Shown in pieces: positions 3,174 through 31,736 of a DNA stretch of 64,000 bases. The first letter of the stretch is position 1; every line of letters starts with the position of its first letter. The notes beneath the pieces were generated by a model. The model saw only the letters and a program-made list of their open reading frames with translations, was not told where the DNA came from and made no database searches. A program made the translations under genes and the position numbers. Source of the DNA: Chrysophaeum taylorii (lineage: Eukaryota > Sar > Pelagophyceae > Pelagomonadales > Pelagomonadaceae); the NCBI GenBank assembly GCA_029834535.1, contig JAQMWT010000042.1:31019-95018 (forward strand). The letters run 5' to 3'.

Positions 3174-3232
3174 TCCTAAACCCTTGCTGCAGCTGGAATT
3201 CTGCTGATGCTGATGATGATGGAAGAAGAAGA

Positions 3233-7395: not shown

Positions 7396-9390
7396 ATGGA
7401 GGACGATGACGCTGCTGACGAGCAGATACGAGAACCTGAACCTCCAAGTCGTCCCGAGGGGACGAACGAGCGGAACGATGATGATTAAGACGATGTTGAT
7501 GATAATGATGATGATGAAGCTGCTACCGAAGACGATGACAATGAAGGAGAGCTGAACTACAACGGCGACGAACCGTTGGATGCGCCGCAGGCGAGGCAAC
7601 CGACAGCTCAGTCAACACGTGCACGAAACATCGAAGCACCGATCATGAGCGAGATTTACGAGGCTCATCTACGCGAGTTACGCCGAGAAAACGAACGCGC
7701 GCAAGAGAGCACTCTGCAGCAGATAGAAGAAGAAAACAAACGGCGTGAACGGCTACGCCAGAAGGAGCTGGACGAGATTCGAGAGCAACTGCGGAAAGCA
7801 AACGCTCTGACGGAGGAACTCCACGATCAAGTACGGACACTGACCCGAGGGAGGGACGAATTACGTACGCCGAGTCGCTCGAGGCGAGCGAGCAGTCCGG
7901 GGTCCCGACCCGAGGAAGAGCCGCCGCCTACGCGAACACGCGTTAAAGTTAGGAAACCGCGCTACGACGACGATGATTACGAGACTAAGGAGGAGACGCG
8001 AGACGACGGGAAGGTCAACGACCAGAAGTTCCTCTTGGACTTCACGGACCGGTTCGCCAGCGCGTTAGCCAAGCATGATCGCAGCAAGGATCGGTCGGCG
8101 ATCAACCTCCGGATTGAAGACTGAAACGTTTAAATTGGTTCTTGATGGTCGCGACCAGGACCAGTTCGATTTAGATGCAGATGCCGTGATGAGTACGTTG
8201 GCCGACGACCATTACAGCATGGAAAGCTGCGGTATTTACTGCCGGTAAGCTTACGCGACACGGTCGTTCCGAGAGCACTTGAAGAAATACAAGGAAGAGT
8301 GCAAGGATCTCGACCATCCGGCGTTTTTTATTTACGTCGGGACGTCGACGATGACGAGTACGGTTCAGTGGTACGACGACTGCGACGACTGAACCGTACT
8401 CAGTGGTACGACGACTGCGACGACTGAACCGTGCTCGTCATCGTCGACGTCCCGACGTAAATAAAAAGACGCCGGATGGTCGAGATCCTTGCACTCTCCC
8501 TAATACTCATCGGTTCGCGGTTGCAAATAACGCGGCTCCCATGTTCATCCTTGTCGTGGGTCGAGAGGGAAAATCCACAATTCTTGCAATTGAGCTCGCA
8601 CCCCTTTTTCGGATTCTCTTCTAATCGTAGCGATTCGTATTTCGTCTTCAGTGGTACGACGACTGCGACGACTGAACAGAGAGTACTGTATCAAGATTTT
8701 GAAATATTCCGATCGAGCTGCCCTTTGCCTATGACGACAGAGGAGCTACTACGAAAACTTCAGAATACGACCCTGGCTTCCGTTCCGAAAAGGCCTGGGG
8801 AACGCCATTTGCACACTTATTGCACCAAGTTCCAGAGCGAGGCGATGGCCTACTGCTCTGTGGCAAATCGAGACCTCAATGATGCTGATATCATTTCTTA
8901 TTTGATACGTGGACTGGAGTCCAGCGACTTACGATCCCGCGTGCGGACCATGCGCAGCGCGCACCCGACTACGTACGACACGTTTACGTCGACGTTGTCA
9001 CTGATTACGCGGCTCGAGAACGATTACAAGACCGCGTTGGAAGAGCGGAACGACCGCAACTCGAAGAGCCCGTCGAACGGGAAATCGCAGAAACCGCCGC
9101 AGGGACGCGGAGGCCGAGCACTAGCCTCGGGACCGAAAGATAAGAAGACGAAATACGAATCGTTGCGATTAGAGGAGAATCCGGGAAAGTAGTACGAGCT
9201 CACATGCAAGAATTGTGGATTTTCCCTCTCGATCCACGACAAGGATGAACATGGGAGCCGCGTTATTTGCAACCGCGAGCCCGATGAGTATTATGTGGCG
9301 ATGTGCAATTACATCGAAAACGATAACCCCCCCCCCCTCTCGAGGCAGATGGGAGAGACGACAGAAGGAGAATACCCAGTCGCGCGATGA
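7396..9390 (+). pseudogene. Gypsy A gag: acidic head, coiled coil and zinc-finger region
   Basis: Homologue of the gypsy B gag at 35,019-36,697. From the ATG at 7,396 it has an acidic start, an in-frame TAA at about 7,486, a long charged coiled coil (about 7,650-7,860; ELRRENERAQES, EENKRRERLRQKELDEI), then GSRPEEEPPPTRTR. After a frameshift comes the capsid-like part with FQSEAMAYCSVANRD and YLIRGLESS, and a Cys/His segment, CKNCGFSLSIHDKDEHG (about 9,205-9,255). Gag packages element RNA and forms the particle. The copy is disabled by the TAA, by frameshifts, by an inverted insertion at 8,386-8,650 and by a C-run near 9,327. Confidence 0.7.
8386..8650. repeat. Inverted snap-back insertion inside gypsy A gag
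   Basis: Relative to gypsy B, about 265 bases are inserted. They are made of reversed pieces of the same gag: 8,401-8,497 is the reverse complement of about 8,290-8,400, and 8,497-8,650 is the reverse complement of about 9,160-9,290. A 29-base block, starting cagtggtacgacgactgcga, occurs at about 8,367, 8,403 and 8,651. That block begins ttcagt and ends actgaa, so it can fold back. This is the expected trace of strand switching during cDNA synthesis. Confidence 0.75.
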
Positions 9391-9394
9391 TGGC

Positions 9395-11813
9395 AGTTCG
9401 AATGCCACTCTCGGGTCGAGCGCCGCTCATGATATTCAGAGCTGGCTCAACGACATGGGCACGCAGCTGACCACGGTCATGGATTCCGTGAAGCACTTGA
9501 AAGATGGACACAGCCGATCGCCGTCGGCACGACCGGGCCGTCGAGATAGCCGGAGCCCCCGACGCCGCGACAAGAGCCGCAGTCACAGCACGCGTTCGCG
9601 CCGACGGAAAGAACGCCGGAGCCCTAGCAGACATTCGCGCCGACGCCGGCGACGAATATCTCGCGACCGCGATTCGGACGGTGGACGTTTCCGAGAAGAT
9701 TCGGGTCATTCGTCTGCTACGTTAGCGTTTACGACCCCTTGCGGTCAACAGTTACCATCAGGAGTGATGATGTACCCGAACACGGACACCCGCTCCGACA
9801 ACGCAGCCGACGCCCTTGCCGCGGCCGCATTCGAAGATCGTGCTCGCCCGCCGCCGGACGAGCCACCCACCGAAGTGCTGACCGATCGTCGGTCTTTGGC
9901 ACGAATTTACGAAGAGATGTCTAGCGATGAACTCGAAGAGTCGAGCGATGAACTCGAAGCTCCACGATACTGGGAGGACGATTCGGACTCGGAAGACGAC
10001 GAAGCCGCACCTTGTGAACTAGTGTCCTCGATTACGTTACTTGACGAGTCATCCAAGGACGACCCACCGTTTGTTTTTGACGAGGAAGCCCTCGACGCTA
10101 TCGGCTTATCTTTTGATCCCCCCGAGATGACCTTTGGCGACCGGACTGGCAGTGAGCCAGACATGGATTTCTGCAGCGATAGCACGGATGATCATTCGAC
10201 AGATGAGACGGTGACCATTGCGAGTGATGCAGAAGACGACCTTACGATAGAGTTGACGTCGGGGACGACGCCATCTTTTTCTGTGGACCCCCCCGAAACG
10301 GTTTCGGTTACGACGGATCGAGCCACGGATACACCGCCGGAAGAAAAGGATACGAAATCGGATAATGCGTCGGACGAGAAGCTACGTGCACGGCCCGAAG
10401 ACGAAAGGGACGCTTCTCCGATTGAGCAATGCCCGGATTTGTCACCGCCAGAAGAAGAGAGCAGTGACGGCGTTGCCGGAGTCGAGCCGAATCCGACCGA
10501 AGAAGATGGATGTAAGAAGAAGATTAGCAGCGTTCTCGATTGGGACGAAGATGAGCCGACGTGGAACCTGCAGGATTGGTGGACGAGAACTCGGACCTTC
10601 TTGCTAAAGAAGCCACTAGAACGACCGCTCAGCTACGGAATCGAAGCCGCAGCCGACATGGAGCCGATCGGCACCGACTGTGACGATCAACCGATGGCGA
10701 CTGAATCTACCGATGCATCCTGGAAAGACGAAATGAAGGAGTTATGGGAGAGGTCCTTTGCTTCCGAGAACGCCGAAGATCGGGATCCCCTACCAGCATT
10801 GATTCCATCCGAGATTGTCATGGAGGAAGAGCGGAAGCCACCAGATAAAGAGGCTGCCGCGAGCGCTGCGTCGATCACCCCGACGACAGACGATACGAGA
10901 GCTCAAGCCGCGGTGTCGATGCCCAACCCCGGCCACGAGCGAGTCAGAGCCCAATGTTCTCTCACACTTCGTTAACGCCGCGAGATGGCAAACTATTGAA
11001 GATGATTTGGTTACCCTCCGTTGTTTGGATACGGGTACTCTTACGTTTATGGCCTACCACATCTACAGGAATCGTGACGGACCGAAATTCTCGACGACCA
11101 TCGGTGTCGATGGAATGGCAAAATTTTCTTATATTTGCTGCGAAATGGTCAGAAAGTTGGCCAAAGATAAGTTGATTTTCGATGAAGGCGAGCTTCCGAT
11201 TAAGCGTAAGCAGTGCGGATCGGGGTTGAATACGACGACGATCTATCGTTGGATCGCGATCCGGGCTGCCCTCGCCGACGACATCGCTGCCCCCATTGTC
11301 GCTATTGTGGCCGACACCAATCATCTTTTCCTGTTGGGAGGGCGCGATATCCGAGTTTTAGGAGCCGTCATGGACAACCCCCACGATCGGACCTGTTTTT
11401 ATCGAACCCAAGTCGTCTACGGACGCAAGAAGATTAAAGTCAAGGGTGAACGAGTCGATGCACCCATTGTGACCTTTCGGTCTGTTTACGATCGAGACCC
11501 GATAACCGTGCCGATTTACAATCATCAGCAAGACGCCTTTCGGCAGAGTCTCGACCTGGTCAAGACTCGAGTTTACGCTCGTCTGAGCACGATTAAAGAT
11601 CACCGCAGCCCGCCGCCAGAACGAGCGGTAGCCTTGACGACGCGTGGACATTCTACGACCAAACTCTCCCCAGCTCCGGGAGAAGCCGCGCAGGAAGTTG
11701 TCGCTTACGCTGCGCGCACGCTACAAATCGAGCCCTGTCGAACTTGCAATTTACCGGTTATTTTGTCGAAGCCTATGGAAAAAGGACAGGTTCTTCGTCG
11801 CTACATTTGCTGA
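9395..11813 (+). pseudogene. Gypsy A RS-rich, acidic and aspartic protease region
   Basis: In order, the frame encodes an arginine/serine domain (about 9,500-9,680; SRSPSARPGRRDSRSPRRR and similar), an acidic low-complexity stretch (9,800-10,900), and a retropepsin-like domain with VTLRCLDTGTLTF (about 11,010-11,050) and the later FLLGGRDIRVLGAV (about 11,328-11,370). DTG and the LG.D-type motif are the two signatures of retroviral-type proteases, which cut the polyprotein. After it comes CRTC near 11,730, perhaps half of a zinc ribbon. Gypsy B is open across the join near 10,960, whereas here a 2-base difference shifts the frame, so this copy is broken. The RS domain is unusual for a retroelement. 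Confidence 0.7.
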
Positions 11814-12189
11814 AAACGAGCAGCTGGGGATTGTCGAAGGGATGTGTTCTTCTTGCGAAGAGCACGACAAGTCATCTGCTCGCGTGGCTGTTACTTCCAC
11901 GCAAGAAGTGCCAACGGTCGTCACTCAAGGCGAGGTTCTCGCAATTGGCGACATCGTTCGGTACGAAGATGAGTTGAGCGTTTCTACGATCAACGAGCTT
12001 ACGAAAGAATGTGAAGAAGGGTACGACAAGGGGAGCCTTTCTTTCGCCGTTTCCGTCGCTAGTCACTTGACGCGCTGCGACGAATCTCCCCCGCCGATGT
12101 TGCTGAGCACGGCGCAGAAGGACGCTACAGCCGCTGCTGTGGACGAGTCCTCCCCCCAACGACCCAAGAGAGATGGCGATTTCGCTCGA

Positions 12190-13430
12190 CGGTCTGAAGA
12201 AGATGAGAAAAAGTGCCGCGAGATCGCCGAAGCGGAGATCCGCCGCCGATACGAAAAGGTTCAGTGGCTTCCGATCACTTATCGCAAGGTGGTGATGCTG
12301 CTCAGTGGAGCCGGAGGCAGCACTTTAGGTCACCAACGAGCCAACGAAATGTGTGGGGCGTCGTTCGAGTCGTGTTAGTACTCGATGCGTCGGACACCGC
12401 CAACAAGATCCACCGCAAGAATTTTCCGAATAATCCTGTGGTGCAGCACGCGCTTTGTGGACGCTATGTTACAACCTCACGGTTGATCGAATCTTATTTA
12501 CCTTACGCGGAATGGCCGTCGTCGATGTGCATCGCGTCGCCACCCTGCGTCCACTCCGCTCTGTGCAACTTGACTTCCAGAGATGTTGGGAAGGGAGTCA
12601 TCGCCACCCACTGGGCGATGAAATTATGCAGGATGGCTGGTTTCTTCATGTGGTTGATAGTGCAGGAGGCCTCGATTATATCTTATGTTGCGCGTTTACA
12701 CCCTTACGTGTACGTCGTCAATTTTTACGACATAACGCCCAGTTTGATGAGCTGTCGCGTGCGGTTGTTGGTTTCTAGCCACCCGCTCCATTTACGCGCA
12801 GTTCCCAAGACTTGCAAGAATATGCAACAAGAGGTCGCCGCTGCGCTTGGCTACGCAGACGAACGGCATTTACTTCAGATGAACAATTTAGGATCATCAC
12901 GAGCCGCGACAGACGCAGCTTATACCGTTGCGCGTGTCCCACTTCGCATAGGACCGCACCGTCCCCATTGCAGATCTCTCAATCTGAAAATGACTTCGGA
13001 GTTGCTGACGATGCCCCCTGATTTTGATTGGGCCGGCTTCTCCAGGACGACCTCGTTGAAGCACTTGGCGTCCGTCGTGCCACCAGACACGATGGCTTTA
13101 TTGGTACTCGATCTGCACAACTCTGTGACCATGGATTTTCGCTTGAGCGGCGAGGCTTTGCCGTCGGCGTTGAGTCCTGCAGACCGACCGTTTGATTATT
13201 TGCAAATCGATGAAACCACCTTTCGTCACGTACAAGTTCCGCTGTTAAACACGCGCACACGTGTCGTAAGACGGGTGTCGATTGATGATCTCCAAGATCG
13301 CACCAAATGGAAACCTCCAGAGGTGCCGTTGATTCCGCCTGCAACAGATGAGCCGGGGACGTCTCATGCTTCTTCTGCTGCCCCCCCCCCCCGGACAACC
13401 AAATTTGGACGTTCCGCCAGATCCTGAGCG
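12190..13430 (+). pseudogene. Gypsy A C5-cytosine DNA methyltransferase
   Basis: Enzymes of this family add a methyl group to C5 of cytosine in DNA. Motif I is KVVMLLSGAGGSTLGHQRAN (about 12,290-12,345). It is followed one base out of frame by VLVLDASDTANKIHRKNFP (motif II region, about 12,370), PSSMCIASPPCVHSALCN with the catalytic Pro-Cys at 12,540-12,548 (motif IV), FMWLIVQEAS (motif VI position, Gln-Glu instead of Glu-Asn) and MSCRVRLLV (about 12,750-12,775, motif VIII with two Arg). Spacing and order fit the Dcm/DNMT fold. The domain lies between protease and RT of the same element. The single frameshift near 12,355 disables this copy. Motifs IX-X were not identified with confidence. Confidence 0.72.
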
Positions 13431-13840
13431 AGATCGGGAACCGAAGATTAAGAGCGAACCGAGCGTTCGTGTCAAAGGCGAGAAGATCAACAAAAGTCAC
13501 CCGGTAGTGAGACTAAAATATGAGAAAAAGTTCGATGTGCCATGGAAAGATGCGCCGCGCGATGCTGATGGTGCACCACTGCCGCAAACTCCTGAGCATG
13601 TCAAGGATAACCCCGTTACGGAAGTGAAGATTCCTACGAAGGAAGAAGTTGACAAGGTTGTTCAGGAGCTTGGAATTCCTGACAATCCGCACTTAGATGA
13701 CGACGCGAAGCTGATGCTCCGTCATTGTGTGCAATATTCTTGGGCCTTTTTCGACCCGATTATGAGACCTGTGGACTCGCCTCATGTGTCTCTACAATTC
13801 AAAGACGCGAATCCGCGACCGATTAAGATGACGCCCTATC
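13393..13840 (+). pseudogene. Start of gypsy A reverse transcriptase, cut by copia-1
   Basis: After a C-run (about 13,381-13,392) that breaks the frame, the product reads through a Lys/Glu-rich linker into FFDPIMRPVDSPHVSLQFKD and RPIKMTPYL. This matches the region before the first RT motif of Ty3/gypsy elements, where a hydrophobic-polar stretch with I.L.....P leads into the palm. It stops at 13,840, exactly where the copia-1 LTR begins. I could not find the rest of the RT after 25,692, so the right half has been lost or replaced. Confidence 0.55.
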
Positions 13841-14152
13841 TGCAGAGCATTTAGCAAGCAGTGGTAAGTCACCTGGGAAACCATCCCGTCTCATCGTGAA
13901 CGTCTGGAAAGGTTAATTCGGGGAATGAAGGTTATGTTCCCTATATCCTCGGAACAGGACAGGCGGCATCTAGAACTACACGAGAAGGTTAAGTGTATAG
14001 TGCTACATACCTCGGGACGCGCTAGACCATGATGATGAGCGTAGGCACAAATCAGAGGACTATTTGATTGTGTAGAAAGGAAGAAGAAGGGTAAGGAAGA
14101 GATCACGCTCTCAACGGACGGATAAGGGTAAGATGCGGCAGATTTCTCTGCA
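13841..14152 (-). repeat. 3' LTR of copia-1
   Basis: The 312-bp repeat is homologous to 25,378-25,692. Its inner border at 14,153 meets cccctcgagatgtcg, which on the coding strand is a purine run (GAGGGG) just before the LTR, a reasonable polypurine tract at about 14,153-14,160. The outer border abuts gypsy A RT sequence at 13,840. Confidence 0.88.
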
Positions 14153-14389
14153 CCCCCTCGAGATGTCGTAAGCGCAAGGTGCGACTGTAGAGCATCTCTC
14201 GAGAAAGATGATGATGAAGAAAAAAGGAAGGAATACGGTCTTGATGGTGACAGAGGTCACATACGAAGCATCAAGAGTATAGAAGGGTCTTAGGACTTGG
14301 ACTTGGACTTGGTGGAACTGAGAGTCGATTTGACCCTTTTGAACAGAACATTAAGAAACACAGATACAACAGACAGTGTGTTAGGATTA

Positions 14390-16080
14390 TTAATCATCGT
14401 CAGCTTCTGCTGTAAGGTGGTGAACACCAATAGCTGAACGATGTGGTGCCAAGAGAAGGGTGAGTGCAAGTAGAGCATTCAGTATGGATGGCGATAGAGA
14501 ATCTAGTTGAAAGGCGTCCAGTTGGTTTTCCAACAAAAAGGTTGGACTTGGCGAACGAAGAACGAAGATAGAAGAGTCTTCAGATTCACACGAGAGCGGA
14601 CGGAATGCTCTGAAGCATGAGAGCAACTTGTCACGTAGATGAAGGAGGTGATCGTCCGGGGAGGAGTAGTTGGTAGCATGTTGATCATGAGCGGTGAGTA
14701 TTAAGCGAGACAACAGCTCTGTGATCTTGTACGGTGTATAAGTAACACGTGGGTGTTGGCTGTAGGAGGGAAGAGCCGGTTCTCCAGGGAGGTGTTTCCT
14801 GGAGTTGGTCGACTTGTTGGCACAAGAAGTCGGAATCAACAAGCGAAGCAGATGGCGTAGGTAACGGTGGCGAAGATATCTCCAGAGTAGCGTCTAGCGT
14901 GGAGTGTGAGTAGTTTAACGACGTTTCGGTCAACGTTAAAAAAAAAAGAAGAGGTGCAGGAAGCCTTAATGTTCTGCCTGAACATAAGTGTGGCCGAACA
15001 TTACATCCCGGAGTAATAGCGGTTCTGTATCATCAGAGGATGATGCGTAGTTGTTAAGATGTTGTACACGATCAGATAACAGTATGAATCACATGGTGGT
15101 ATTTGGCGGCTTGAACATAGCCTGAGTTTTACGAGCTTGTGTTTGCTCGAGCGTTACAAGAAAGTTAAGATGCTCCAGGTGCATCTGAGTAATAAGCCGA
15201 AGATCCAGTGCCAATGGTAATTGAGTACTGGAGTCTGTGGCTGCATCGGTTACTGATAAGACTAAATGAGCAAGTGACGAATGTTGCGTTAGATTTCTGG
15301 TCAAGAGAATATGTAGCTCCTTTGGCAAATGATACGTGCGTATGATGGTTGCGCGTATATGACCAGCTGAGCACCCGTTACAGGAGGGTTGGAAGGAAGT
15401 AGCATTACGTGCACATACGTTAGGTTGTATGGGCGCCTGATCGGTGTTGTGACAAGCACAACAAATGTTAGTGGTGATAGTTGAGATGGGAATATGACCA
15501 TTCTGCTTGTGGTCATCTGTGTTAAGGTGACTCAGCACTTCGGTGGGGAGTTCACTACGTGCTTGTGACTTCGAATTATATGTGGTAGAAAGCAAGAAAT
15601 GTAGGATGACAGGATGAAACGTTCACGTTTGGGGCCTCTGTAGCCGCCAATAGAAGTAATAGCAGGAGCAGCTTCCCAAAATGTAGTAATGGGTAGGCGC
15701 ATGGATATGAACGTCGTAAGTTCCACAAACAGTAAAGAGTCAGCAGATTCATATATCGAGTTGAGTGCCGTAGAGATTTCCGCTCGCATAACAGAAGAGA
15801 GGAAGGGCGTGGCAGGAGTACGGAAACTCTCAGAACGAGAGAATCCTCGTTCAATCAGGGCAAAATCCATATTGAGGCCATCGCTGGCGTCGGTGAGACA
15901 GTAGCAGCCTGGGAGGTAGTAGGAGTGACAGTGGTTATGGGTTGTCGCTTTTGAAACAACTTGGGAGAGATGCCACGGCCACGGGAGTGTCAAGAAGACA
16001 TGAACAACACTCGCCCGTGTACAAAAAAAATGTGGCAAGAGAAGGAAAGGCCAGGGGTAGTTTAACGTCGTTGCGGTCAC
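14390..16080 (-). pseudogene. Extra 3' reading frames of copia-1 (ORF3/ORF4 region)
   Basis: About 1.7 kb between the RNase H stop and the 3' LTR. It opens in the RNase H frame with VTATTLNYPWPF (16,080-16,045) and runs to 15,532. It then continues in another frame (15,595-15,089) with a Cys/His cluster, ICCACHNTDQ to CNGCSAGH, that could bind zinc. A second LTETSLNYSHS motif lies at 14,932-14,911, followed in a third frame by a helical stretch (ITELLSRLILTAHDQH, 14,720-14,680). I recognise no family. It could be an added polyprotein module or an envelope-like ORF, although no clear signal peptide or membrane anchor is seen. Frames shift at least twice. Confidence 0.5.
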
Positions 16081-16095
16081 TAGAGTTAGGTATCT

Positions 16096-16962
16096 TCAAT
16101 CCTGTAAAGGATTGTCGTCAGAGGCATGATGCATGCCGAGTAGAGAGCGAAATGTGGAGAACTCAGCAGCAAGTGGCTTTGTAAAACCATCCGCCACGTT
16201 CAGCTTGCCGGGAACATGATGGACTCGTATTTTCTGTAGCGAGATGTACTCACGGATTTTAAACCATCTGGTCGACAGTGCCTTGGATCGAGAGGGCCCA
16301 TCTGGGTTATTAGAGGTGTGAACAGCGGCAGCATTGTCAGACAAAAGAGGTAGGCTTCTGATGAAGCGCATATCTTCGGCAATTGGGTTGTCATTGTCAT
16401 CAATGTCAACAGGGTCAGCGGTGTTCTCACCATTAGCATTGTTGACGTAGAAGGTGGGGTTGACGACAAAGGAGAGTTCCAACAGCAGCTTGCGTAGCCA
16501 AACAGCTTCATCAGCACAAATACTGAGGGCAATCAACTCAGCTTCGTGAGTTGAGCAGGAGACAATCGGTTGAAGTTTGCTTTTCCAACCAATAAGGCAG
16601 TTGAAAAGATAGAAGACAAACCCGGTGGTAGATTTCCTACCTTCCTGTGCTAAGGAAGGGGCATTGTCAGCGTCAACCATGGCAACTCAGGGGTCAAACT
16701 GTCCAGTAGCTACATCCTGCGGTTGGTAGTCGACCACAGTGGATAGATCAATTCGATTAGCGGAGACAGTGCGAAGGTGAGCTTCAATGGCATTACCTTT
16801 AGGATGGAACCAGAGGCGAAGTGAGCGGTTTTCCGGTTTCTTGAGGTAGCGAAGCAGATGCTCTAGCATATGGACGTGAACATACGTGCGTGCATGCATA
16901 CCACGCGAACATCTGCCCAAGGCTTGCGAGAAGTCAGGTCTGCAGGCAACTTGCATGAACAC
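16096..16962 (-). pseudogene. Copia-1 RNase H domain
   Basis: Continues the RT frame after an in-frame TAG at 17,002-17,004. It reads KLVFMQVACRPDFSQALG and LLRYLKK (the connection after RT), has a TGA at 16,687-16,689, then VDADNAP, KSTTGFVFYL, GWKSKLQPIV and THEAELIALS, the copia RNase H motifs with acidic residues. It ends KPLAAEF, FRSLLGMHHA and a TGA at 16,096-16,098. RNase H removes template RNA during cDNA synthesis. The three stops are the only breaks; no frameshift is needed. Confidence 0.85.
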
Positions 16963-17001
16963 CAGCTTGCCAAGGAGGGTGGCAAAGTGCGAGTTGATGT
17001 A

Positions 17002-17987
17002 CTACTCTGCTTCAGTGCTGGGAGTGCCATCTTTATACTTGAAGGACGATGACATAGGATATTTAAGCGGGGTCAGTTGCTGCAAGACTGGGTGATCAGC
17101 GAAGAGTTCATCCAGCTTGGCTTGCACATCCAGAGAAATGGAGCCGTCAGATGTGCGACACACACGCATGCCTAGGAGGGTATGGACAGGTTCAAACTGC
17201 TCTACAGCATACCGTTTGTGGAGGGCATCCTGTAAGTCTGTACGAAGAGGGTCGTCATTGGACACAATAACAATGTCGTCTACAGACAGACTGCATACGA
17301 CGAACTTAGCATGTGCGGATACTCGAGCATATAGGCAAGAGTCCGAATGCAGGCGTTTGTAACCAAGGCTACGGAAGAAGCCGTCTATCTCTTTGTTCCA
17401 AAGGGATGGTGATTGCCTAAGTCCATAAAGTGACTTCAGCAGTTTCGGTAGACGTCGGCCCTTGTACTTAGCGTCATCGGGGTCGATAAGCTTGATGCCG
17501 TCTGGTAACTGAACATAGACGTTGGCATCAATGTCAGACTGAACGAAGGCGTTCGGGACGTCTGCATGGTAGACAGCCAATTGCTTGTATGCTGCAATAG
17601 CTAGTAGTACCCGGATTGCGGTCATAGTGGCCATGGGGCTGAAGGTACCAAAGAAATCGGCGCCAAGAGATGCTAGGAAGCCACGTAGTACGAGGCGAGC
17701 CTTGTGCTTAACGTATTTGCCTGCAGAGTCTGTTTTAATCTTCAGCACCATCTTGCTGTCAATAGGACGAGAGACACCGTCGGGTAAGGAAAGTTTGAAG
17801 CAGCCAAAGCGGATAATGTCGTGGAGTTCCTTGGCGATGGCCTTGAGGTAGGCGTGCCTGTTTTCAGGCGACAAACCGTGGAGGCACTTAAGTTTATATT
17901 CGTCAATGGAAACGTCCGCTTCTTGGACCTTATATTCGTCAGGACCAACAGTGGCTGGTGAATTATAGTTTAGCGACGTTGCGGTCG
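17002..17987 (-). CDS. Copia-1 reverse transcriptase
   Basis: Part of the 1,672-residue frame 22,020-17,002. It follows the TATSLNY site at 17,987-17,966 and has RPIDSKMVLKIKTD, KARLVLRGF, AVYHADVPNAFVQSDI (first catalytic Asp), LPKLLKSLYGLRQSPSLWNK, DSCLYA and CSLSVDDIVIVSND (catalytic Asp pair, about 17,275-17,285), then HTLLGMRV. These are the copia RT blocks in normal order. The residue before VDD is Ser rather than the common Tyr. RT copies element RNA into cDNA. The stop at 17,002 falls within the polyprotein, before RNase H, and replaces a codon inside a conserved stretch. Confidence 0.88.
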
Positions 17988-20159
17988 AGGCAGTGTGCGC
18001 AACTTCGGAATAAGCGGAAACAGCGTCAGTAGGAGTAGTAGGGGCAGATTGCAGTTGGATATGGATAGTAGGGTCGGTACGTAAGACCTGGGTGATAAAC
18101 TCTGTAGAGACCAGAAGGTATTCCTCCAAGTCAGCCAGAGATGCAGATGTAGCGCCAAACTCGGATGAGTTGTGATCAATAAAGCTGATCGGTGCCAGGT
18201 ACGTAAGTGCATATTGTAAGGAAGAAGTGCCGAAGGCAGCAGCGTGTTCAGTGAACGCAGATAAAAGGGGCTGAGGAATAGGGCACGTAGGTGAACCATC
18301 AGCAGTTAAAAAGGTTGCAGCTGGGATGCTGGATGCGCACTTGGCGTGGGCGAAGTAACCATCGACGTGCGGGTAGCGGGCAAGTAAGTCAGTGCGCAAC
18401 GGGAGAAGAAGACGAGCTAACAACGCATGTTCCCCCTCTGAGCAGATAGCAGACCAGAGGATACCACCACGGAGATGAAGGGCGGAGAGGGCGGGGGACT
18501 TGAACGTAAGAAAGTGGTGGCGAAGATCCCAGCGGAAATCGGCGAGCTTGCCACCAGCGGCTTTGTAAGCACCAATAGTAGACGCTTGTAACCGGGCTCG
18601 GATAGTTTTCATAGAAGTGGCCTTGCGAGTGTTAGGCTGTTTGGAACCTGGGACAAGAATGAGGTCATCTTGTGCAAAAAGGTCTTTGTAAGAAGGAAGC
18701 AAGGGCGGCGGTGACATAGAGCCAGATTCGTCGGCGGTAGCGTCAGAAGATGGAGAAGAGGCCGGAGTAGGGGACGAAGAAGGAGGAGCTGAAGGAGGTG
18801 GGGAGTGCCCCCTCTGAGGATGAGGAGTCGTCCTTGTCCCCCTCTGAATGACATGGTCTTGTATAGTGGTGTGGGGTGTGAGCGAGAAAGGCGCGGAAGG
18901 AGCGTGTGGCGGAGGAGCTAGTTCAGGATCAGGAGTAGGATGCTGCAACATGTAGAGGAATTGCAGCTTGGACGAAACACGAATTTGTCCGTTTTCAGGG
19001 TTGAGGACGACGTCAGCGAGATGGTCGACGCGTGGGGAGACGAGCGGGTTTTGTGCGTTGGCGCAACAGAGATACAGATATTTGCGGCGGCACGGTTCCC
19101 ACTTGTGGTGTTCATGGGGCTCCAATAGGAGGTAACATTCAGCGCCAAAAATCTTGAGCATATCGTGTTGGGGAGTGCTGAGTTGGTTGTAGAGTAGCTG
19201 TTGCGGACTCAGAATAGCATGATGAATGCGCTCGAGCGTGGCGTTCGGGAGAAGGTTATAGCTTTGAACGGTGTGTATCACCGCCCATGGGAACATGATA
19301 GCGGGCTCCACGATCTTGGCGCCACGATAGTGAGCATTAAGGAGAGAACGAAGGCGAGTTGAGGAGGCGGAGGCGATGAAACCGATGGCAGACTCAACTT
19401 CAAAGTTAAAGTGGTGCATGTACGGCGGGAAGGCAATGAGTTGAATGCCCTTATCGACGCGGTACGGGGGGGTAATGTGCTGGCTAAAGTAAGGCTTAAA
19501 TGCATCGGAGTAGAGGGTGCGCATGTGCACATTGAGTTGTGTACGACAGAAGTCATACACAAAATCCAGAGCTTGAGTGAACTCCGTGGCGTTGGTGGTG
19601 TGTGTAAAGTACACCAAGAGAAATTTCGAAATGAGTTCCTTGAAGACGATGATATGCGTGAAGCCCCTCCATTCGGATGGGATGGTCACATAGCCGCCGT
19701 CGCACGCCCAGACTTCACCGGCTTTGTGGGTTTGCTCAAAAGAAGGCTTGGTTGCATTGAAATGCTTGTGCGGGTGGCGCTTGTTGTGTGCGATGCAGTC
19801 GGTGCATAAGTCGCGATATGGTATGTCAGAAGCAGAGAATCCAGGGCGAGCAAGTACGTTGGGGGCCTTGGCAGCGACGTTGTCGGGGCAGTGATGCACC
19901 CGGTGAAAGCGATTAGCACGTTCTTTGGCATTGAGATATTCGGTGGATCCGTGTGCGAGGGACTTACGAGGAATGGGATGAGCGGGAATGTGCCGTTTGC
20001 GCCGAACATCGAACTTGAGTTCGGTGTCTAAGGCAGTGGAAGGCGGTGCGTCGTCATCCTGGTGCACAGCAGGGTCACTTGGAGGTGCATCCTCATTATC
20101 ACGAGTAGCGAGAGTATCTTCGTAGGACGACGATATATAGTTTAACGACATTCCGGTCA
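17988..20159 (-). CDS. Copia-1 integrase
   Basis: In the same open frame, between SLNY motifs at 20,159-20,138 and 17,987-17,966. The zinc-binding head reads RFHRVHHCPDN with CTDCIAHNKRH (about 19,900-19,780). The catalytic triad is VWACDGGYV (about 19,690-19,710), LYSDAF (about 19,500-19,515) and NFEVES (about 19,390-19,405), a D-x35-E spacing. It is followed by PWAVIHTVQSYNLLPNA and FGAECY, as in copia integrases, and a Pro/Ser-rich tail (18,950-18,650). It joins cDNA to host DNA. No defect is visible in this part. Confidence 0.9.
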
Positions 20160-22077
20160 AGCAGTTGCTGGAAATAGACATCAAAAAAGATTGTGCCAAA
20201 GACAAGGTATCTGTGCTGCACGTGGTGGAGGCTTGGTCAACGGTCATGAAGTTGGATACATAGGATTTCTTCGTCACGGCAGCAGTATGTTGGAAGGTAG
20301 GGTCCAACATAAGGGATTTAATATCGGCGATGATGAGCGAAAGGTGCTTGTACAGAGTGCTATACGTACCGGCAGGCAGAGCATTGCTGAGCATGTCACA
20401 GCAAAGGTCATGGCGTAGAGACAAGAGGAAAGACTCCTGTTGTTTGGTGTGGTTGTTAGCACGAATCAACTCCGGTCGAGTGGGGTAGCGTAATTTCCCG
20501 TTGCGAGGATCGAGTAAAATAATATTGGCATACCCTCGGACGGTTGGCAATGGAGCAAGCATTGAGTGGATTTTAGAGCCGAGCTTGCGGTCACTTCCAC
20601 GAAGGTACCCTATATAGCGACTATGAGATAGGTGATGATCTTCCAGAGCAAAAAGAGAATCCTTGTAATCGAAAGAGTTGTCGGTGGCCTTGTAGGTAAG
20701 GCAGCCAGGCATCACGAGAGCGCATCTGGACACGAGGTTTTGTATGGCGGTGCCATAGGTGGTAGCGGAGCCAACTTGGGGAAGGGCTTGGACTATCCAC
20801 AAGTAACCCATAAACGGCTCCAGATATATGGACCTGTCCCGGTCGCGGGGGATGTCGGAAGCAGTGAACGTATACGTGCTCCCAAAGGCGTTAATGGGAG
20901 TGGAGTTTTTTGTGGTGGCGTTCTCTATGGTGAGGTCGCCGTCGGAATGGTGGCCACCAGTTAAGAAGTAGGAGTTGTGTGATGTTGATGAGGTTGTAAG
21001 TAACGACCTGTGTGACGGTTGGTTAGTTTCGAAAACGGTTATGTAATAGGACACAGGAGTGGGTGAGTTAGTGCGTAAGCTGGCAAACAAGTTATAGAGG
21101 ATTGTAAAAACCTTTACGTGTATAGGATGCGTTGCATCGGGTAGTGGCTCCCTAGAGGAGCGTTTAAAGCACAACTGATGATAAGTACATTCGGGTTGAA
21201 CAGAGTGAGTACGTTGTTCGTGAGCCTGTTGTGAGTGAAGGCGAAGCAGTAACATATTGAGGGATTCAAGGTCAGCCATAGTAAGCTGAGCAGAACCTGT
21301 GCGAGAGTAAGGTGCAAACGTTTTAGGAACGGGGATATATGGAGGATCGGGGAACACCCGGATCCAGTCTTTGGATACATGTTTAGGTAGCCAAAGGCGC
21401 TTGGGAATAGCTTGTAGATCATCCACTATCTTTAGGAAGGGGCGTGGATGGAGGATGGGCCACGACAATAGTTTAATTGGTCCAGTAGAATATCTGCGTG
21501 CGATGCATATCCATCTTTCTCTAGATTGGTAGTCGCCACAGAGGTAGGTCGGGAACCTATCAACAACATCGACACAGTAATCAAGTGTAGTATGGATAAG
21601 GCTGGCCACTGTGATGTGGTCTTGATGACAGTACTTATGCGGAGGCGTCATCTCAGCCAGTAGTACCAAGGGCTGGAGTAGCTTGATGACAGACAACACG
21701 CTGTCGAAAAGAGAATCGTCCAGCATGCTGTGTAAGTCTTCTGTCTTATGCTGTTTTGGTAAATTCCTGTTTGTGCAGGGAGGAGTGACCTCAATTATAT
21801 CACAATAGAATGTGCGCCTTTCCTCTGGTGAGATTAGGTGAAGGTGGTTAATAAAGGCGGGGAGAGATTTAAATAATAATACAGTAGGAAAACGGTGGCG
21901 TAACATACGAACAAGCGTATCATCAGATTCAACAACAACTTTTACATTGATATTTAAGCCTAAGTCATTAGTGGCTTGAGACAGGAACGCCGGAGTTGAC
22001 AAACCAGAACAAAGTAACATGACAGAGGGTTCGCGGAGATTGGACTCTTGTGAGAGGAACCCTGGGCGTGAAAGTAG
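20160..22077 (-). CDS. Copia-1 C5-cytosine DNA methyltransferase with unknown C-terminal region
   Basis: Motifs of the DNMT/Dcm family occur in order: I, MLLCSGLSTPAFL (from 22,020); II, VKVVVESDD; IV, CDIIEVTPPCTNRNLP (Pro-Cys about 21,775-21,792); VI, LVLLAEMTPP (Glu present); VIII, CGDYQSRERWICIARR (about 21,505-21,545); and a possible IX, RTGSAQLTMADLES (about 21,290). The reaction is methyl transfer from S-adenosylmethionine to C5 of cytosine, with Cys of motif IV attacking the base. The remaining 380 residues up to the integrase (about 21,200-20,160) match nothing I know. There is no break from 22,020 on; one TGA at 22,078 lies upstream. If cleaved at the SLNY sites it would stay joined to the protease. 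Confidence 0.82.
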
Positions 22078-22080
22078 TCA

Positions 22081-23141
22081 AGTTAATGGCTGCGTATTTT
22101 GCCGAACAAATTTGTTCAGTTTCCGAAGATTGAGAACCAAAGGGCGAATCCACGGGCGATCTGGTAAAACTCTTTGGAGTAGGTAGTTGTATTATGCCAG
22201 TAGATCCCTGTTTTCATGGTATCGCTTGAGGGAAAATGCGGGAGAACGAAGTTCGAGTTGCTTGTCGCGCGCGATGTTGTAAGTGAGACAAGGGAGAGCA
22301 GGTAAATTAGCTGCTACATAGTGTATGGGTATACGTGCATCTTTGTCTATGCGGCTCGTGACAGCGCTGAGCTTTGGCTCAGCTCGATCATTGAACACAG
22401 TGGTCAGGTTCGTCTGGTTCCACTCGAGCATGCTCAGGATAGCGAGATGTCGGTCATGCAATGGTTGAAGACTTAAAGCGAAGTCGATCTTAACATAGCC
22501 AACTTGTGGATGATCTGGTAGGGGAACAACAATGTTGCGTGTCAACATCATGTGTGATGCCCGTTGTTGTCCTGTAGCCGTCTGAATAACAATCGGCGCG
22601 AATTTGGAATCCAATGGAATTATATGATTGGGTATTGCAAAATCGTACGTGGACATCAATGAGATGGTAGCACAAGAGTCAAAATATAGAAAAGAGCAAT
22701 GTGGAGGGACACTGTTTACCTTCATGTAGTTGGTGAGGAAGGCGTCTTCCGAATGTGGGCAAGTAGTGGAGAGGCTGGCTGTGAAGAAGTTCTTCAACAA
22801 TAACAGATTCGTTGGAATAATAATCGGTTGAACAGGTGGTGATGGTTCGTCAGCCTCATCAGCCATGCCGTGCTTTTCGTCAAATGACGATAGCGAAGTA
22901 TGATCGGCATCCCTTTTGGTTTCGGCTTGTGATGGTGTGTTGAGGGCAGATTGGACCTGTGAAGATAACGAGGACAATAATGCTGGTGGTAAAGCCGAGA
23001 TGGCGGAAGCGGTAAAGAGGTTAGGCACAGTATTGGAAGGATTACCCTGTGTGTCTGTAGTAGGAGGAGTTGCCTTTGGGGTGGGAACAGTAACAACAGT
23101 ATGGTGTTGTGGCTCCGCGTAGTTTAACGACTTTTCGGTCG
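22081..23141 (-). pseudogene. Copia-1 aspartic protease region (D-S-C active site)
   Basis: In frame with gag, after the STEKSLNY site at 23,141-23,120 and a Pro/Ser linker. CSFLYFDSCATISLM (codons D-S-C at 22,672-22,680) stands where copia proteases have LDSGAS or similar. It is followed by IVIQTATG, VVPLPDHPQVGYVKIDFAL and HLAILSMLEWNQ, typical of the beta-rich body and the LG.P-like end. Gly of the catalytic triad is replaced by Cys; the related copia-2 has D-T-C, so the change is shared. A TAA at 22,192-22,194 interrupts the frame before the methyltransferase. The protease would process the polyprotein. Confidence 0.72.
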
Positions 23142-24891
23142 AGGATAGATGAACGTCTACATCATAAATGATGTCTTCTGCAAACATGAGCTGTTCGTTT
23201 AGACGAAGTAAACTACTGTTGTCCTCCGTAGATGTCGTTGACAGAATGTCCGCTGATTGTAATAGAGTCCCAAATAACTTGTTGATATTCTGTTGTAGCT
23301 GAGCCGTTGTATCATTATCTGTCACATGCTTCGTAAGTTCACTACACTGTTCTCGCAGGGTGTTTAAGGTGTGGTTTGTTCGATCTAATAATTTCATGTT
23401 AGACCGAGAGGACCTGTCAAAAGTGCGGGGGTAAATTGGACGGTCATGGGACTGTCCGGCAGTTTTCTTGGTGACGTAAGAATCACCAGGACGATAATAC
23501 GATAAATCGCTGCGAGAGAAAGGCTGGCGAGCATCATTAGAGTTACGCAAGCGTCTAGCATTAAACGTGGAAGATGTACCAGGTTGGGACGAAGTGATGA
23601 AGGCGAGTGTGTTAGCAGTTTGAGTCAGACTTTTGTCTGCTGAGTCCAGCGTTTTTGTAAGTAGTAACTTTGGGTTTGGTTGAGATGATAAACCTTCGAC
23701 ATGGGGTTACCAAGAAACAGGGCGTTCTAAGCGTCTTTTGTTCGACCCATTTGATACTACATTGTAAAGATGTAGTGCGTATTCTAAAATGTAGCTAGGG
23801 TTGCCAACCGTAGGGCGACACAATCGTTCAGCTTCTGGCACAGGTCGAGATGAAGATCGGGTTTCGTACATATAACACCAATCTACCCAACCACGATCGT
23901 AACGGTTGTTGCTGGTATTATCGGCATAATGCCGATGTATCTCTTCATATATTTTTCTGCAAAGAGTGCCAAAGTCGAATTGAAGGTCAGTCTCTTCCTG
24001 GTTAAGTTGGTAAGAGATTTGCCTAAATGCTAGGACAGCTTCGATAAATACATGGACATACCAGTTAGGATTATAAACAACAGAGTTAAATTGCTGTTTC
24101 AAATAGGACACATCAGTAGTCGTAACAGACTCGTAGTGACTAAAGGCGATGAGCATAATGGCTCGAGCCTTGTTGGGTAAATAACTTTTGTTATATACCT
24201 CATTGATGGCGGGCAAGGCCGCAAGTGCTGGTTTTCCAACACTTTCAAGATTGAAGTAAGTATGCAAGAATGTAGCATACGAGTTCTGATAAGTGTGCCA
24301 GTCAGCAGCAGTTAGCGAAAACATGGTAACCGGGGCACGAGCACGAGTGTCGAAAGCTAATGCCTTCGGGTGCGCGCGATTTAAGATTCGTTCCTCTTCT
24401 AAGAAACGGGCATTGATTTCAGGACGTAATGCCTTGACTTCATAGTCGTAACAGACAGTAGCTAGCTGAGCTACTCCTGCATCAGGTAAGTGGGGGAAAG
24501 CTTCGTTGGTGAAATGCCATTCCTGATACTCAGGGGGCCATTCATCAACAGCAAAACGGAGATCAGCAGCCCAATCGGTCTTCCATTCCAGGAAAACGCG
24601 ATCGAGAATTTGATTCCGGAGGATCTCGTAGTCCTTGCATGACCGAGTATATGCTTCGTACGAGTCGTACTCGAGGAAGGCATCGGCATGACTGGACCGT
24701 AATAATTGCTTAATATGCTTGATTTGCAAGGATACCTTGCGAGTCTGAAGCTGAAATCGATTTCCATCGTTAAGAAACTCAACTACAGGAGCTTCGAGCT
24801 TCAATATATCCGCACCTGTGATCGCCTTGGGTGCGGCTCGTGCTGCGTGTTCTGCCATAGCAGTTGACGGGGAACCTGTGGGTTCAGTCAC
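23120..24891 (-). pseudogene. Copia-1 gag
   Basis: Starts at the ATG at 24,891 (TEPTGSPSTAMAEHAA), with GADILKLEAPVVEFLNDGNRFQLQ, then a helical capsid-like body (YDSYEAYTRSCKDYEILRNQ, WHTYQNSYATFLHTYFN, KARAIMLIAFSHYESVTTTD) to SW and a TAA at 23,707-23,709. The frame then continues open, with a basic/Ser-rich part (RRLRNSNDARQPFSRSD, RSSRSNMKLLDRT), to the SLNY motif at 23,120. Copia-2 has a matching protein with Val at the stop position, so the full gag was probably about 590 residues. No CCHC knuckle is visible, unlike copia-3. Gag forms the particle. Confidence 0.75.
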
Positions 24892-25363
24892 GCAGTTGAC
24901 ACTGTCTAGACATTATAAGGGGGTCTGTCTATCGGTGTCTATGTACACTCATCGTTTTCGATGGAAATATGTATATTTGACGACTGTGCAAGCTGTGAGT
25001 CCAGAGTAGTGTCGCTAAGCGTAGTCACTCAGGCAGCTGGTTAGTTTTGGTGCTCTCAAGGAGCTTGTTAAGTGCATTACCATGGAATGTACGAGTGGAC
25101 GTACCCAAAATATTCCATAACATGTGTGCAAGAGTGTAGGTTAGCCAATTACACACATATCAACATTGACATGACAATACGATACTATGAACAGGTGCAC
25201 ACAAGGGTACACGATCACGTGTGCAAAAAATATGCTATATACAGCCCAATGGTAATGGCGATATATTGACAAGCGTGTCACATGTCGAGGCTGGACCGGC
25301 GCGGTAACAGTCCAATACCCATAGGCTACGTGCATGTTGACACATGGTTTCTCAGGGACCCGC
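24892..25363 (-). other. Copia-1 leader (untranslated) region
   Basis: About 470 bases between primer site and gag ATG without a convincing frame. Rich in alternating tg/ca steps (acacgatcacgtgtgc at about 25,207) and short palindromes, which may fold for packaging or translation. No promoter can be defined. Confidence 0.5.
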
Positions 25364-25377
25364 CTGGGCCCATAACC
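25364..25377 (-). promoter_or_regulatory. Primer binding site of copia-1 (initiator tRNA-Met anticodon arm)
   Basis: Directly inside the 5' LTR, the coding strand reads GGTTATGGGCCCAG. This is complementary to CUGGGCCCAUAACC, the anticodon stem-loop of eukaryotic initiator tRNA-Met, where CAU is the anticodon. Drosophila copia and relatives prime from an internal half-tRNA of this kind instead of the tRNA 3' end. Confidence 0.85.
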
Positions 25378-25692
25378 TGCAGAGCATTAGCAAGCAGTGG
25401 TAAGTCACCCGGGAAACCACCCCGTCTCATCATGAACGTCTGGAAGTATTTAATTCGGGGAACGAAAAGGTATGTTCCCTATATCCTCAGAACACGACAG
25501 GCGGCATCTAGAACTACACGAGAAAGGTAAAGTGTATAGTGCTACATACCTCGGGGCGCGCTAGACCATGATGATGAGCGTAAGCACAAATCAGAGGACT
25601 ATTTGATTGTGTAGAAAGGAAGAAGAAGGGGTAAGGAAGAGATCACGTTCTCGACGGACGGATAAGGGTAAGAGGCAGCAGATTTCTCTGCA
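25378..25692 (-). repeat. 5' LTR of copia-1
   Basis: 315 bp, homologous to 13,841-14,152. On the minus strand it starts TGCAGAGAAATC and ends AATGCTCTGCA. It should hold the element promoter, but no clear TATA box or start can be assigned. Against the other LTR I count about 18 substitutions and five single-base indels. Confidence 0.88.
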
Positions 25693-29771: not shown

Positions 29772-29908
29772 TCGACGCCTGCCCGCAGGGTAATACGTTC
29801 CTTGACTCCTGGAATATACCAGAAGCGCTGAGCCTGGAGGAATTGCGCACCACCAAGGTATTATAAACCAATTGCAAATACAACTCAATGGGTAATACAG
29901 AGGGTGCC
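29772..29908 (+). repeat. Dispersed repeat Z between two 65-base direct repeats
   Basis: The segment from gacgcctgcccgcagg to cagagggtgcc also occurs at about 50,633-50,780 and, inverted, at about 55,360-55,505. Here it is flanked by a direct repeat of about 65 bases, accacaaacatgcacccaag to cgctcagcac (29,706-29,768 and 29,908-29,972), much longer than a usual target-site duplication. Its class is unknown. Confidence 0.55.
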
Positions 29909-29975
29909 ACCACAAACATGCACCCAAGTCACGTACGTCGCCTCCCTCAAAAGCGCATTATCGCTCAGCACCCGA

Positions 29976-31736
29976 TGCATGATACTGTTCGTGCAGACAT
30001 CCGTGAAAACCGCGATATGAACTTCACGCGGCTCTACAAGCGCATTACAGATGTTTACATGGGCCACGGGGAGCGTGTAGCTCAATCCGCTATTGCTTCA
30101 CTGCATACGCTGGTGTGCAACAATATTGATGATCTTGACAACTTCCTCAACAAGTTCATCACCGGAGTTCAAGTTGCTCGGCATCATCAAGATTACCCCG
30201 ATGCTACAGCGTTGCAATTGCTTCAAACGAAAATCCTTGATTCAATGTTGTCCAAGGATCTTATTGCGCTTGATGATAAACTGCAAGCATATGATGGTTT
30301 TGTTGATCGTCTCAATGCTAAGATTTTTGAAAGCGCGCAACACAAGCATACACTCATCAATGTCGCTATCAACAAGGGACCCCGCAATCGCGACAGTGAC
30401 TCCAACCCTCCGCCTTGCCAAACCTGTGGTCGTCGCAATCATTCTACTGCTCAATGTTATTATCGCTCCCGTCAACATACTCACTTGCGCTACAATCCGC
30501 GCCAACGTCCACGCCAAAATTCCCGTTCCAGGCCCCTGCCTCCCTTTTACAACACACACAACCGTGGTCCTTTTCCTCAACCCCACTACCCAATATCCAA
30601 CAAACGCCCACGCGCTACTGTCATATGTCACTTTTGTGGCATTCCTGGTCATTACAAGAAAGACTGTCGCAAGCGTCAGCGCTACTTACACTCTCAAGCC
30701 CAGTCCCGACCTCACCCTCCTTTCCAATACCAACCTCGCCCGCCTCGTCCAAATCCACCATTATACCAAGACTACCTCTCTGCCCCAATACCACTCTTGC
30801 CCCCATCTCAACCCTCTCCGCCGCTTCTTGCGTTGCCACCCTCCACCACACCCTCTGTACCGCCTTCCACGGCCATGCCTTCCCCTACTGACCCACCTCC
30901 CGATGCTGCCAACTATCCCTCTTTCAATTTCCATATGTTCTCATTATCTACAACGGTCCACCAGGTCTTGGCTTCCACCAACTCTCTCAACAATCTACTC
31001 ACCGCCCGTGAGCGTGACTATCTTCACTACAACAACCGCTGTCTTGTTGTCTACGACACGGGTGCCAACGTTAATCTTTTTAATTCCCCTTCCGGTTTTA
31101 CTGATCTTGACGACACCCAACAACATGCCATCAACTCTGCTATTGGCACTGGATCTATCTCTGGCTCGGGCACTGCCCACTTAACGTTCCCTTCCATCGG
31201 CCTTATCGACAATCGTGGTCTTCCATTCCCAGCACCCACCCTTTCCGCCCCTCATGGCATCCATATCGCTTTTCCGCACACTCTCATCTCTCCTGGCCTT
31301 GGTGACAAGCGGGTTCTTTCTGACCGTGCCCTTGAGCAGGCTGGCTACGATTGTCATACGATCCAAGACGTTGGGCCTGCTCACCCTCAACCAATATTGC
31401 GTCACCGCCAGACGCATCATGTCATTCCTCTGCACCGTCGCTGTGGTCTCCTGTTGATCGTATGTTGGATCGGCAACACCACCGCTGCGCCTTCAACGGA
31501 CTTTGTTTCCCCGTTTGTGGCATTTTCTTCCTGCCCTCGCATTCACGACCCTTGCGCTTTTCCAGCCGTGTCTCAGCGCACCCAACTCACTTTCGACCTG
31601 TGGCATGCTCGCCTTGGTCATTATAGTGCCTCTTACATCCGCCGGTTGTCCTCTCTCGCTGTTGCGCCCCTTTTTTCCCAAGTTCGGCGTCTCTTTCTTT
31701 TCGTGCTGCTTGTGCTTTAGGTAAAACAAGTGCAGG
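29976..31736 (+). pseudogene. Copia-3 gag-protease-pre-integrase, 3'-truncated
   Basis: One open frame. Gag reads FTRLYKRITDVYMGHGER and LDNFLNKFITG, then two CCHC zinc knuckles, CQTCGRRNHSTAQC (about 30,415) and CHFCGIPGHYKKDC (about 30,628), a Pro-rich linker, the protease CLVVYDTGANVNLF (about 31,045) and the pre-integrase LTFDLWHARLGHYSASYI (about 31,590). The knuckles bind RNA and the DTG pair cuts the polyprotein. Near 31,700 the frame shifts, but ACALGKTSAG can be read just before the break at 31,736, where Helitron sequence begins. Integrase and RT are absent. No LTR was found on the left. Unlike copia-1 and copia-2 it has DTG and zinc knuckles. Confidence 0.85.

Follow-up and report, generated by a model that had tools for sequence, protein, structure and literature searches.

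A predicted C5-cytosine methyltransferase domain between protease and integrase of Ty1/Copia retrotransposons in Chrysophaeum taylorii, preceded by a conserved in-frame UGA codon

C5-cytosine methyltransferases carried by retrotransposons were published in 2018 for LINE, DIRS and Gypsy elements (PMC5890265), and the question posed by a parasite that carries its host's silencing enzyme has stood since then. Here we analyze a Ty1/Copia element, copia-1, whose Pol region appears to open with such an enzyme, which adds Copia to LINE, DIRS and Gypsy among the elements reported with a cytosine methyltransferase. The copy studied lies in a 64,000-nucleotide stretch of the Chrysophaeum taylorii genome (the window; C42:31019-95018 of a 697-contig assembly), and at 70.8 Mb this genome is a compact case of the question. 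An earlier note on this DNA had called for a comparison of superfamilies with the published cases. The portions of the 2018 paper considered here supply it: the carriers are those named above, and the abundant Copia elements of Symbiodinium are stated to be without a DNA methyltransferase (DNMT).

According to the same portions of that paper, KnitGypsy-Dnmt3 of Klebsormidium nitens resembles copia-1 in having a C5-cytosine methyltransferase under purifying selection inside the Pol open reading frame (ORF) of a long terminal repeat (LTR) element. However, it is a Gypsy element with a Dnmt3-type domain, and these portions make no mention of a stop-codon gate; two Gypsy families of the present genome, gypsy-1 and gypsy-2, are nearer to it in kind than copia-1 is. 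SymbioDIRS-Dnmt3 and SymbioLINE-Dnmt exemplify hundreds of retrotransposon DNMT copies per algal genome, as found here. The former has its enzyme in Pol, like copia-1, but is a DIRS element, and the latter is a LINE (PMC5890265). The Ectocarpus transposon Sola1-1_Ec32 likewise pairs an algal mobile element with a DNA methyltransferase, in a ParB-methyltransferase gene for which self-marking was proposed (PMC12477816, in the part considered); unlike copia-1, it is a DNA transposon, and its enzyme is a separate gene predicted to modify N4-cytosine or N6-adenine. The gammaretroviral gag-pol readthrough of murine leukemia virus (PMC4178896, in the part considered) shares with copia-1 a pair of in-frame ORFs with a single stop codon between them that would have to be read through for Pol, but there the stop is UAG between gag and pol, whereas in copia-1 it is UGA-C between protease and methyltransferase, with no strong structure seen downstream.

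A literature search over titles and the beginnings of abstracts, with subscription journals and preprints outside its scope, found among the papers listed neither a C5-cytosine methyltransferase in Copia nor a stop-codon gate before one; the placement within Copia and the recoding gate both appear to be new. A single sentence in a 2025 paper places DNMT3 in 'LTR Copia and DIRS' and cites the 2018 study, whose LTR element is Gypsy (PMC12344493). A Copia case may therefore have been meant, although the section containing this sentence describes none.

The domain between protease and integrase

The copia-1 copy in the window is an 11.85-kb element on the minus strand (13841-25692), as are all of its parts given below. 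The order of its parts is Gag-like, protease-like, stop codon, methyltransferase, HHCC zinc finger, integrase core, RVT_2 and RNase H. The succession of protease, integrase, reverse transcriptase (RT) and RNase H, the copia-type RT and the LTRs are those of Ty1/Copia, with the protease and RNase H recognized by eye and the integrase core, rve, below its cut-off. Further in-frame stops (e.g., at 23707, 22192 and 17002) interrupt this copy, which is defective and not functional as it stands.

The extra region (20362-22023) contains C5-cytosine methyltransferase motifs I, II, IV, VI and VIII and, beyond a large insert, stretches resembling IX and X. Motifs I, IV, VI and VIII had been listed in the earlier note and are indeed present; II and the IX- and X-like stretches are additions. 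These enzymes are characterized by a catalytic Cys after Pro (motif IV), a Glu (motif VI) and Gln-x-Arg-x-Arg (motif VIII), and the Cys, the Glu, the Gln and both Arg are found in 40 of 40 copia-1 copies (the 30 closest, including the window copy, and 10 from lower in a list of at least 132 matches) and in an alignment of three families, where the motif VIII of copia-2 is without the Gln. The codon for the catalytic Cys (TPPC, motif IV) is at 21775-21777, and that for the Glu of motif VI (LLAEMTPP) is at 21652-21654. M.HhaI, M.HaeIII and DNMT1-type enzymes align with the domain at about 13-18% identity, and it differs from them in its polyprotein setting and in the roughly 330 residues that separate motif VIII from the motif IX-like stretch.

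Taken by itself, the window copy makes a poor case for the extra region being a METHYLTRANSFERASE. PF00145 was absent from a Pfam scan of the whole window frame, and the window core alone scored only 11.6 bits against it (cut-off 22, E 0.19). For the same copy, neither a PDB search nor NCBIfam gave a C5 methyltransferase, and a protein-collection search with the 1691-aa window frame or a copia-2 frame returned no methyltransferase or no match. These results weigh against the assignment and are what a chance resemblance of the motifs would have in its favor.

Since the single-sequence searches failed, profiles of several families were needed. Of 21 copia-1 copies, 18 match PF00145 (best E-value 0.0032), with no other family listed. 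The gathering score is missed by the public protein P0001 (20.2 bits) and by P0003 (17.7 bits), and the copia-3 locus L078 has no match; it is passed by copia-2 (37-38 bits) and by P0002 (23 bits), a public protein intermediate in sequence. A profile built from three related Copia families matches M.HhaI at 1.7e-5, and in NCBIfam the relatives match DNA (cytosine-5-)-methyltransferase. For the domain core, the predicted fold is class-I Rossmann-like of the C5 type: all 50 Foldseek matches listed are C5 methyltransferases, with DNMT3 beside DNMT1, DNMT2, DNMT5 and bacterial enzymes. A model of the full domain (640 aa, 10 rows) had a pLDDT of 30.3 and was set aside.

The three-family profile, the intermediate protein, the predicted fold and the purifying selection described below thus make up a case, from sequence and modeling, that supports a C5-cytosine methyltransferase domain lying between protease and integrase in the Pol region of a Ty1/Copia element, as the earlier note had claimed. 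Both outcomes that the note had named as refuting, a missing profile match and a different fold, were checked: the predicted fold bore the claim out, as did the family profiles, whereas the bare window sequence missed the Pfam cut-off. Chance resemblance is contradicted by the profile, intermediate-sequence and fold results, and we regard it as extremely improbable.

None of the 40 copia-1 copies has a change at the motif II Glu, the catalytic Cys, the motif VI Glu or the Gln and two Arg of motif VIII, and the motif I Gly is retained in 38 of them, although the diversity seen is lowered because the first 30 were picked by similarity. In copia-3, the Cys is found in 11 of 11 copies and the motif VI Glu in 10 of 11. 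The domain might nevertheless have ceased to be an enzyme and, with the methyltransferase fold and its S-adenosylmethionine (SAM) pocket retained, now serve Pol as a structural element, in binding nucleic acid or in sensing the cofactor. In copia-1 and copia-3, motifs I (LCSGLST), IV (TPPC/TSPC) and VI (EMT instead of the usual ENV) are indeed atypical, and the large insert following motif VIII points the same way. On the other hand, the catalytic residues are invariant among the 40 copies, the Cys is present in 24 of 24 rows of a three-family alignment (A7) whose rows outside copia-1 are 17-55% identical to the window copy, and copia-2 has the usual ENV and PCQ forms. Loss of enzymatic activity is therefore quite unlikely.

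The ratio of nonsynonymous to synonymous changes (pN/pS) in the copia-1 domain is 0.157 for changes shared between copies and 0.48 for unique ones; the corresponding values for 11 copies of copia-3 are 0.071 and 0.32. Because the ratio is lower for shared changes, the substitution pattern clearly points to constraint while the element replicates and decay once it is inserted. This constraint is somewhat weaker than that on Gag-Pro: in 14 copia-1 loci (17 taken as in frame minus three removed by an identity filter aimed at frame shifts), the methyltransferase has a shared pN/pS of 0.153, compared with 0.103 for Gag-Pro (490 codons) and 0.069 for its protease half.

The UGA codon before the methyltransferase

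In the window copy, an in-frame UGA followed by CUA (22078-22080) marks the border between protease and methyltransferase and is proposed as a programmed readthrough site. The TGA stands in frame directly before the domain in 27 of 30 copia-1 loci, 26 of the 30 having TGACTA; of the other three loci, two have the same letters shifted by indels and one is without them. In 13 of the 30 it is the sole stop within the 500 codons that end at it. In copia-3, the corresponding position of L078 has an in-frame TGA (TGACGC), as do 10 of 12 further copies, two being without an in-frame TGA. The one full copy of copia-2 that was read (L061) lacks a stop at this point and encodes Gag in a different, overlapping frame. 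UGA CUA is a high-readthrough consensus in human cells according to the part of the source considered (PMC4359377), which may not hold for an alga. The copia-1 site thus combines a conserved in-frame stop, a leaky context and constrained coding on both sides (shared pN/pS of 0.10 upstream and 0.15 downstream in the 14 loci). Because the conserved UGA falls precisely at the border of protease and methyltransferase, it is probable that in both copia-1 and copia-3 the enzyme is the first domain of Pol and is made by stop-codon readthrough, at low, Pol-like amounts.

It is also conceivable that the UGA is an ordinary terminator and that the methyltransferase-Pol ORF is started separately, by reinitiation, internal entry or from a spliced RNA. 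In copia-1 an ATG is the 20th codon past the UGA, and P0001 is deposited as a complete 392-aa ORF with a Met start. Furthermore, no RNA structure stands out after the UGA, and the absence near it of a structure typical of readthrough counts against our interpretation. However, this ATG is present in only 18 of 21 copia-1 rows (alignment A1) and is replaced by Thr in all six copia-3 rows of A7, the reading frame is maintained on both sides of the UGA, and the UGA-C context is common to two families that are about 52% identical. Separate initiation is therefore possible, though on the unlikely side.

A possible role in the particle, the other families and the host

Starting from the identity, position, catalytic residues, copy number and purifying selection of the domain and from the conserved UGA of copia-1 and copia-3, all read from sequence, we propose that a Ty1/Copia lineage of a photosynthetic protist captured a C5-cytosine DNA methyltransferase long ago, that selection has kept it as the first domain of Pol, and that it methylates cDNA in the particle. 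We put the probability of this reading at about one half. Readthrough of UGA-C would yield, at readthrough frequency, a polyprotein running from Gag-Pro through the methyltransferase to integrase, RT and RNase H, which would be packed together with the genomic RNA. In the particle, the protease would free the methyltransferase or leave it on Pol. As the enzyme stands on the Pol side of the conserved UGA, low amounts of it are predicted there. It would then methylate cytosines of the new cDNA, and the mark would accompany this cDNA into the nucleus and let it pass for host DNA; alternatively, it would keep new copies quiet enough to spare the host. That the cDNA may be marked in this way follows the proposal made for Symbiodinium, where DIRS DNMTs induced CG methylation in yeast and an encounter with cDNA in the particle was suggested (PMC5890265, in the portions considered).

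At the head of Pol, the enzyme would also be placed beside RNA in the particle, and its target could be the tRNA primer or the element's genomic RNA. The best fold matches include DNMT2 (4h0n, 3.5e-8), which acts on tRNA, and the 2018 paper, as far as considered, raises RNA methylation for a LINE-borne DNMT that was inactive on DNA in yeast (PMC5890265). In contrast, the best profile matches are DNA enzymes (M.HhaI), as is the NCBIfam match of the relatives. The CFT-type motif of DNMT2 was not seen in the domain, and an RNA target is unlikely.

A nuclear action directed at the host genome or at integrated copies, as a modifier of the host epigenome or in self-silencing, would agree with copies numbering in the hundreds and with the joint occurrence of DNMT elements and genome-wide CG methylation in Symbiodinium (PMC5890265, same portions). 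The host has a DNMT5-like gene (L032; 3e-143 to 7r76, whose sequence is common to the DNMT5 entry 7r77 and is labeled there as DNA repair protein Rad8), which could maintain such a mark, and the CpG observed/expected ratio of the copia-1 domain is lowered to 0.75. For comparison, the window as a whole has a ratio of 1.07, the element one of 0.91 (TpG/CpA 1.18) and the copia-3 domain, which has no deficit, one of 1.05. CpG transitions per site are not clearly raised either, at 0.18 versus 0.11 elsewhere in copia-1 (12 events) and 0.10 versus 0.13 in copia-3. Because these statistics are mixed, lasting CpG methylation is not clearly visible; a mark confined to cDNA, another sequence context or an RNA target would all fit them. 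A UGA gate would moreover leave the enzyme Pol-bound and scarce, and we consider a nuclear role improbable, to about the same degree as an RNA target. A gene resembling DNMT2 is also present in the host (L031; in the PDB it matches human DNMT2 best, at 7.7e-39). Because of these two genes and 76 matches to light-harvesting proteins, the genome is that of a eukaryote.

Of the three Copia families bearing the enzyme, copia-1 has at least 132 matches in the assembly, and the other two have at least 152 and at least 149; copia-1 and copia-3 are sister families, the identity of about 52% being that of their domains. With gypsy-1 and gypsy-2, which also bear C5-cytosine methyltransferase domains, there are at least five such families. 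L062 and L063, relatives of the decayed Gypsy element of the window, match PF00145 at 2.5e-6 and 1.9e-10, both with the domain upstream of a Gypsy-type RT. No pairwise similarity was detectable between the Gypsy domains and that of copia-1, and hhalign of thin alignments gave indecisive E-values of 0.028 (copia-1/copia-2), 0.03 (copia-1/gypsy-1) and 0.076 (copia-2/gypsy-1). No relative was found in IMG/VR scans with copia-2, gypsy-1 and P0002 or in a prokaryote genome scan with P0002, so that a viral or bacterial donor is conceivable but finds no support in these scans. If the dissimilar Gypsy enzymes are taken together with a captured, leaky-UGA-gated enzyme that would lead the Copia Pol and, in each particle, methylate the element's own cDNA before integration, self-methylation may be recurrent here and across LTR superfamilies, a wider reading that we hold only tentatively.

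Other features of the element and its surroundings

The 5' LTR of copia-1 (25378-25692, 315 nt, TGCAGAG...CTCTGCA on the element strand) aligns with the 3' LTR (13841-14152, 312 nt) at a Kimura two-parameter (K2P) distance of 0.053, with 10 transitions, 6 transversions and 14 gap columns (315 compared sites); this value is slightly high because up to seven flanking bases entered the alignment. Directly after the 5' LTR stands the primer-binding site GGTTATGGGCCCAG (25364-25377), which looks like the complement of the initiator tRNA-Met anticodon arm, as in copia-type half-tRNA priming. In four fetched loci with a pattern matching this site, no tRNA gene was called by ARAGORN or Rfam. These loci (L064-L067, on contigs C130, C142, C374 and C407 of G000) contain stretches that resemble the 3' half of initiator tRNA-Met, end in ACCATG and are joined to different upstream sequence at each locus; they are possibly reverse-transcribed pieces of primer tRNA.

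The Gag-like part of the ORF, from its first Met (MAEHAAR), occupies 23710-24858 and has no Pfam match. The remainder of the Gag-Pro ORF (22195-23706) has no Pfam protease match and contains the protease-like motif FDSCAT (22666-22683), recognized only by eye and read as such in 28 of 30 loci, i.e., those where the motif search found it. Its Cys stands at the place where the D-T/S-G motif usually has Gly. Downstream of the methyltransferase are the HHCC-like zinc finger of integrase (19795-19905, by eye), the integrase core rve (19480-19728; E 0.0076, 16.9 bits, under the 32.6-bit cut-off), the copia-type RT RVT_2 (17125-17787; PF07727, E 7.7e-42) and RNase H (approximately 16111-16689, recognized by eye in the translation, in the same frame and broken by stops in this copy). 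No ORF of at least 250 codons is listed in the 2 kb or so (14160-16110) from RNase H to the 3' LTR, which is preceded by the polypurine tract GAGGGGG (14153-14159).

The flanking 5-mers, ctatc and ttatc, agree at four of five bases. Together with the decayed Gypsy element that forms the left flank, this suggests that the insertion site was rearranged or the target duplication changed. This Gypsy element (9173-13840, plus strand) adjoins the copia-1 3' LTR, ending at the junction at 13840. Separate from copia-1, it carries C5-cytosine methyltransferase motifs II-X (12207-13427, plus strand), assigned to the gypsy-1 family through by-eye similarity to L053-L055, with motif I directly upstream in a different frame; its segment 12309-13427 has no PF00145 match. 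A second Copia-like frame (29867-31717, plus strand) combines a pair of CCHC-like zinc knuckles with the protease motif DTGA and a match to gag_pre-integrase; their spacing is normal, and no methyltransferase lies between them. The five methyltransferase-bearing families of this genome sit beside a Copia-like frame without the domain in the same window. Finally, a host gene at 3083-4600 (plus strand) resembles mitochondrial pyruvate/branched-chain dehydrogenase kinase (BCDHK_Adom3 1e-13, HATPase_c 2.1e-8), and an EF-hand between these two domains (EF-hand_5 6.4e-6) makes control of the predicted kinase by calcium possible.
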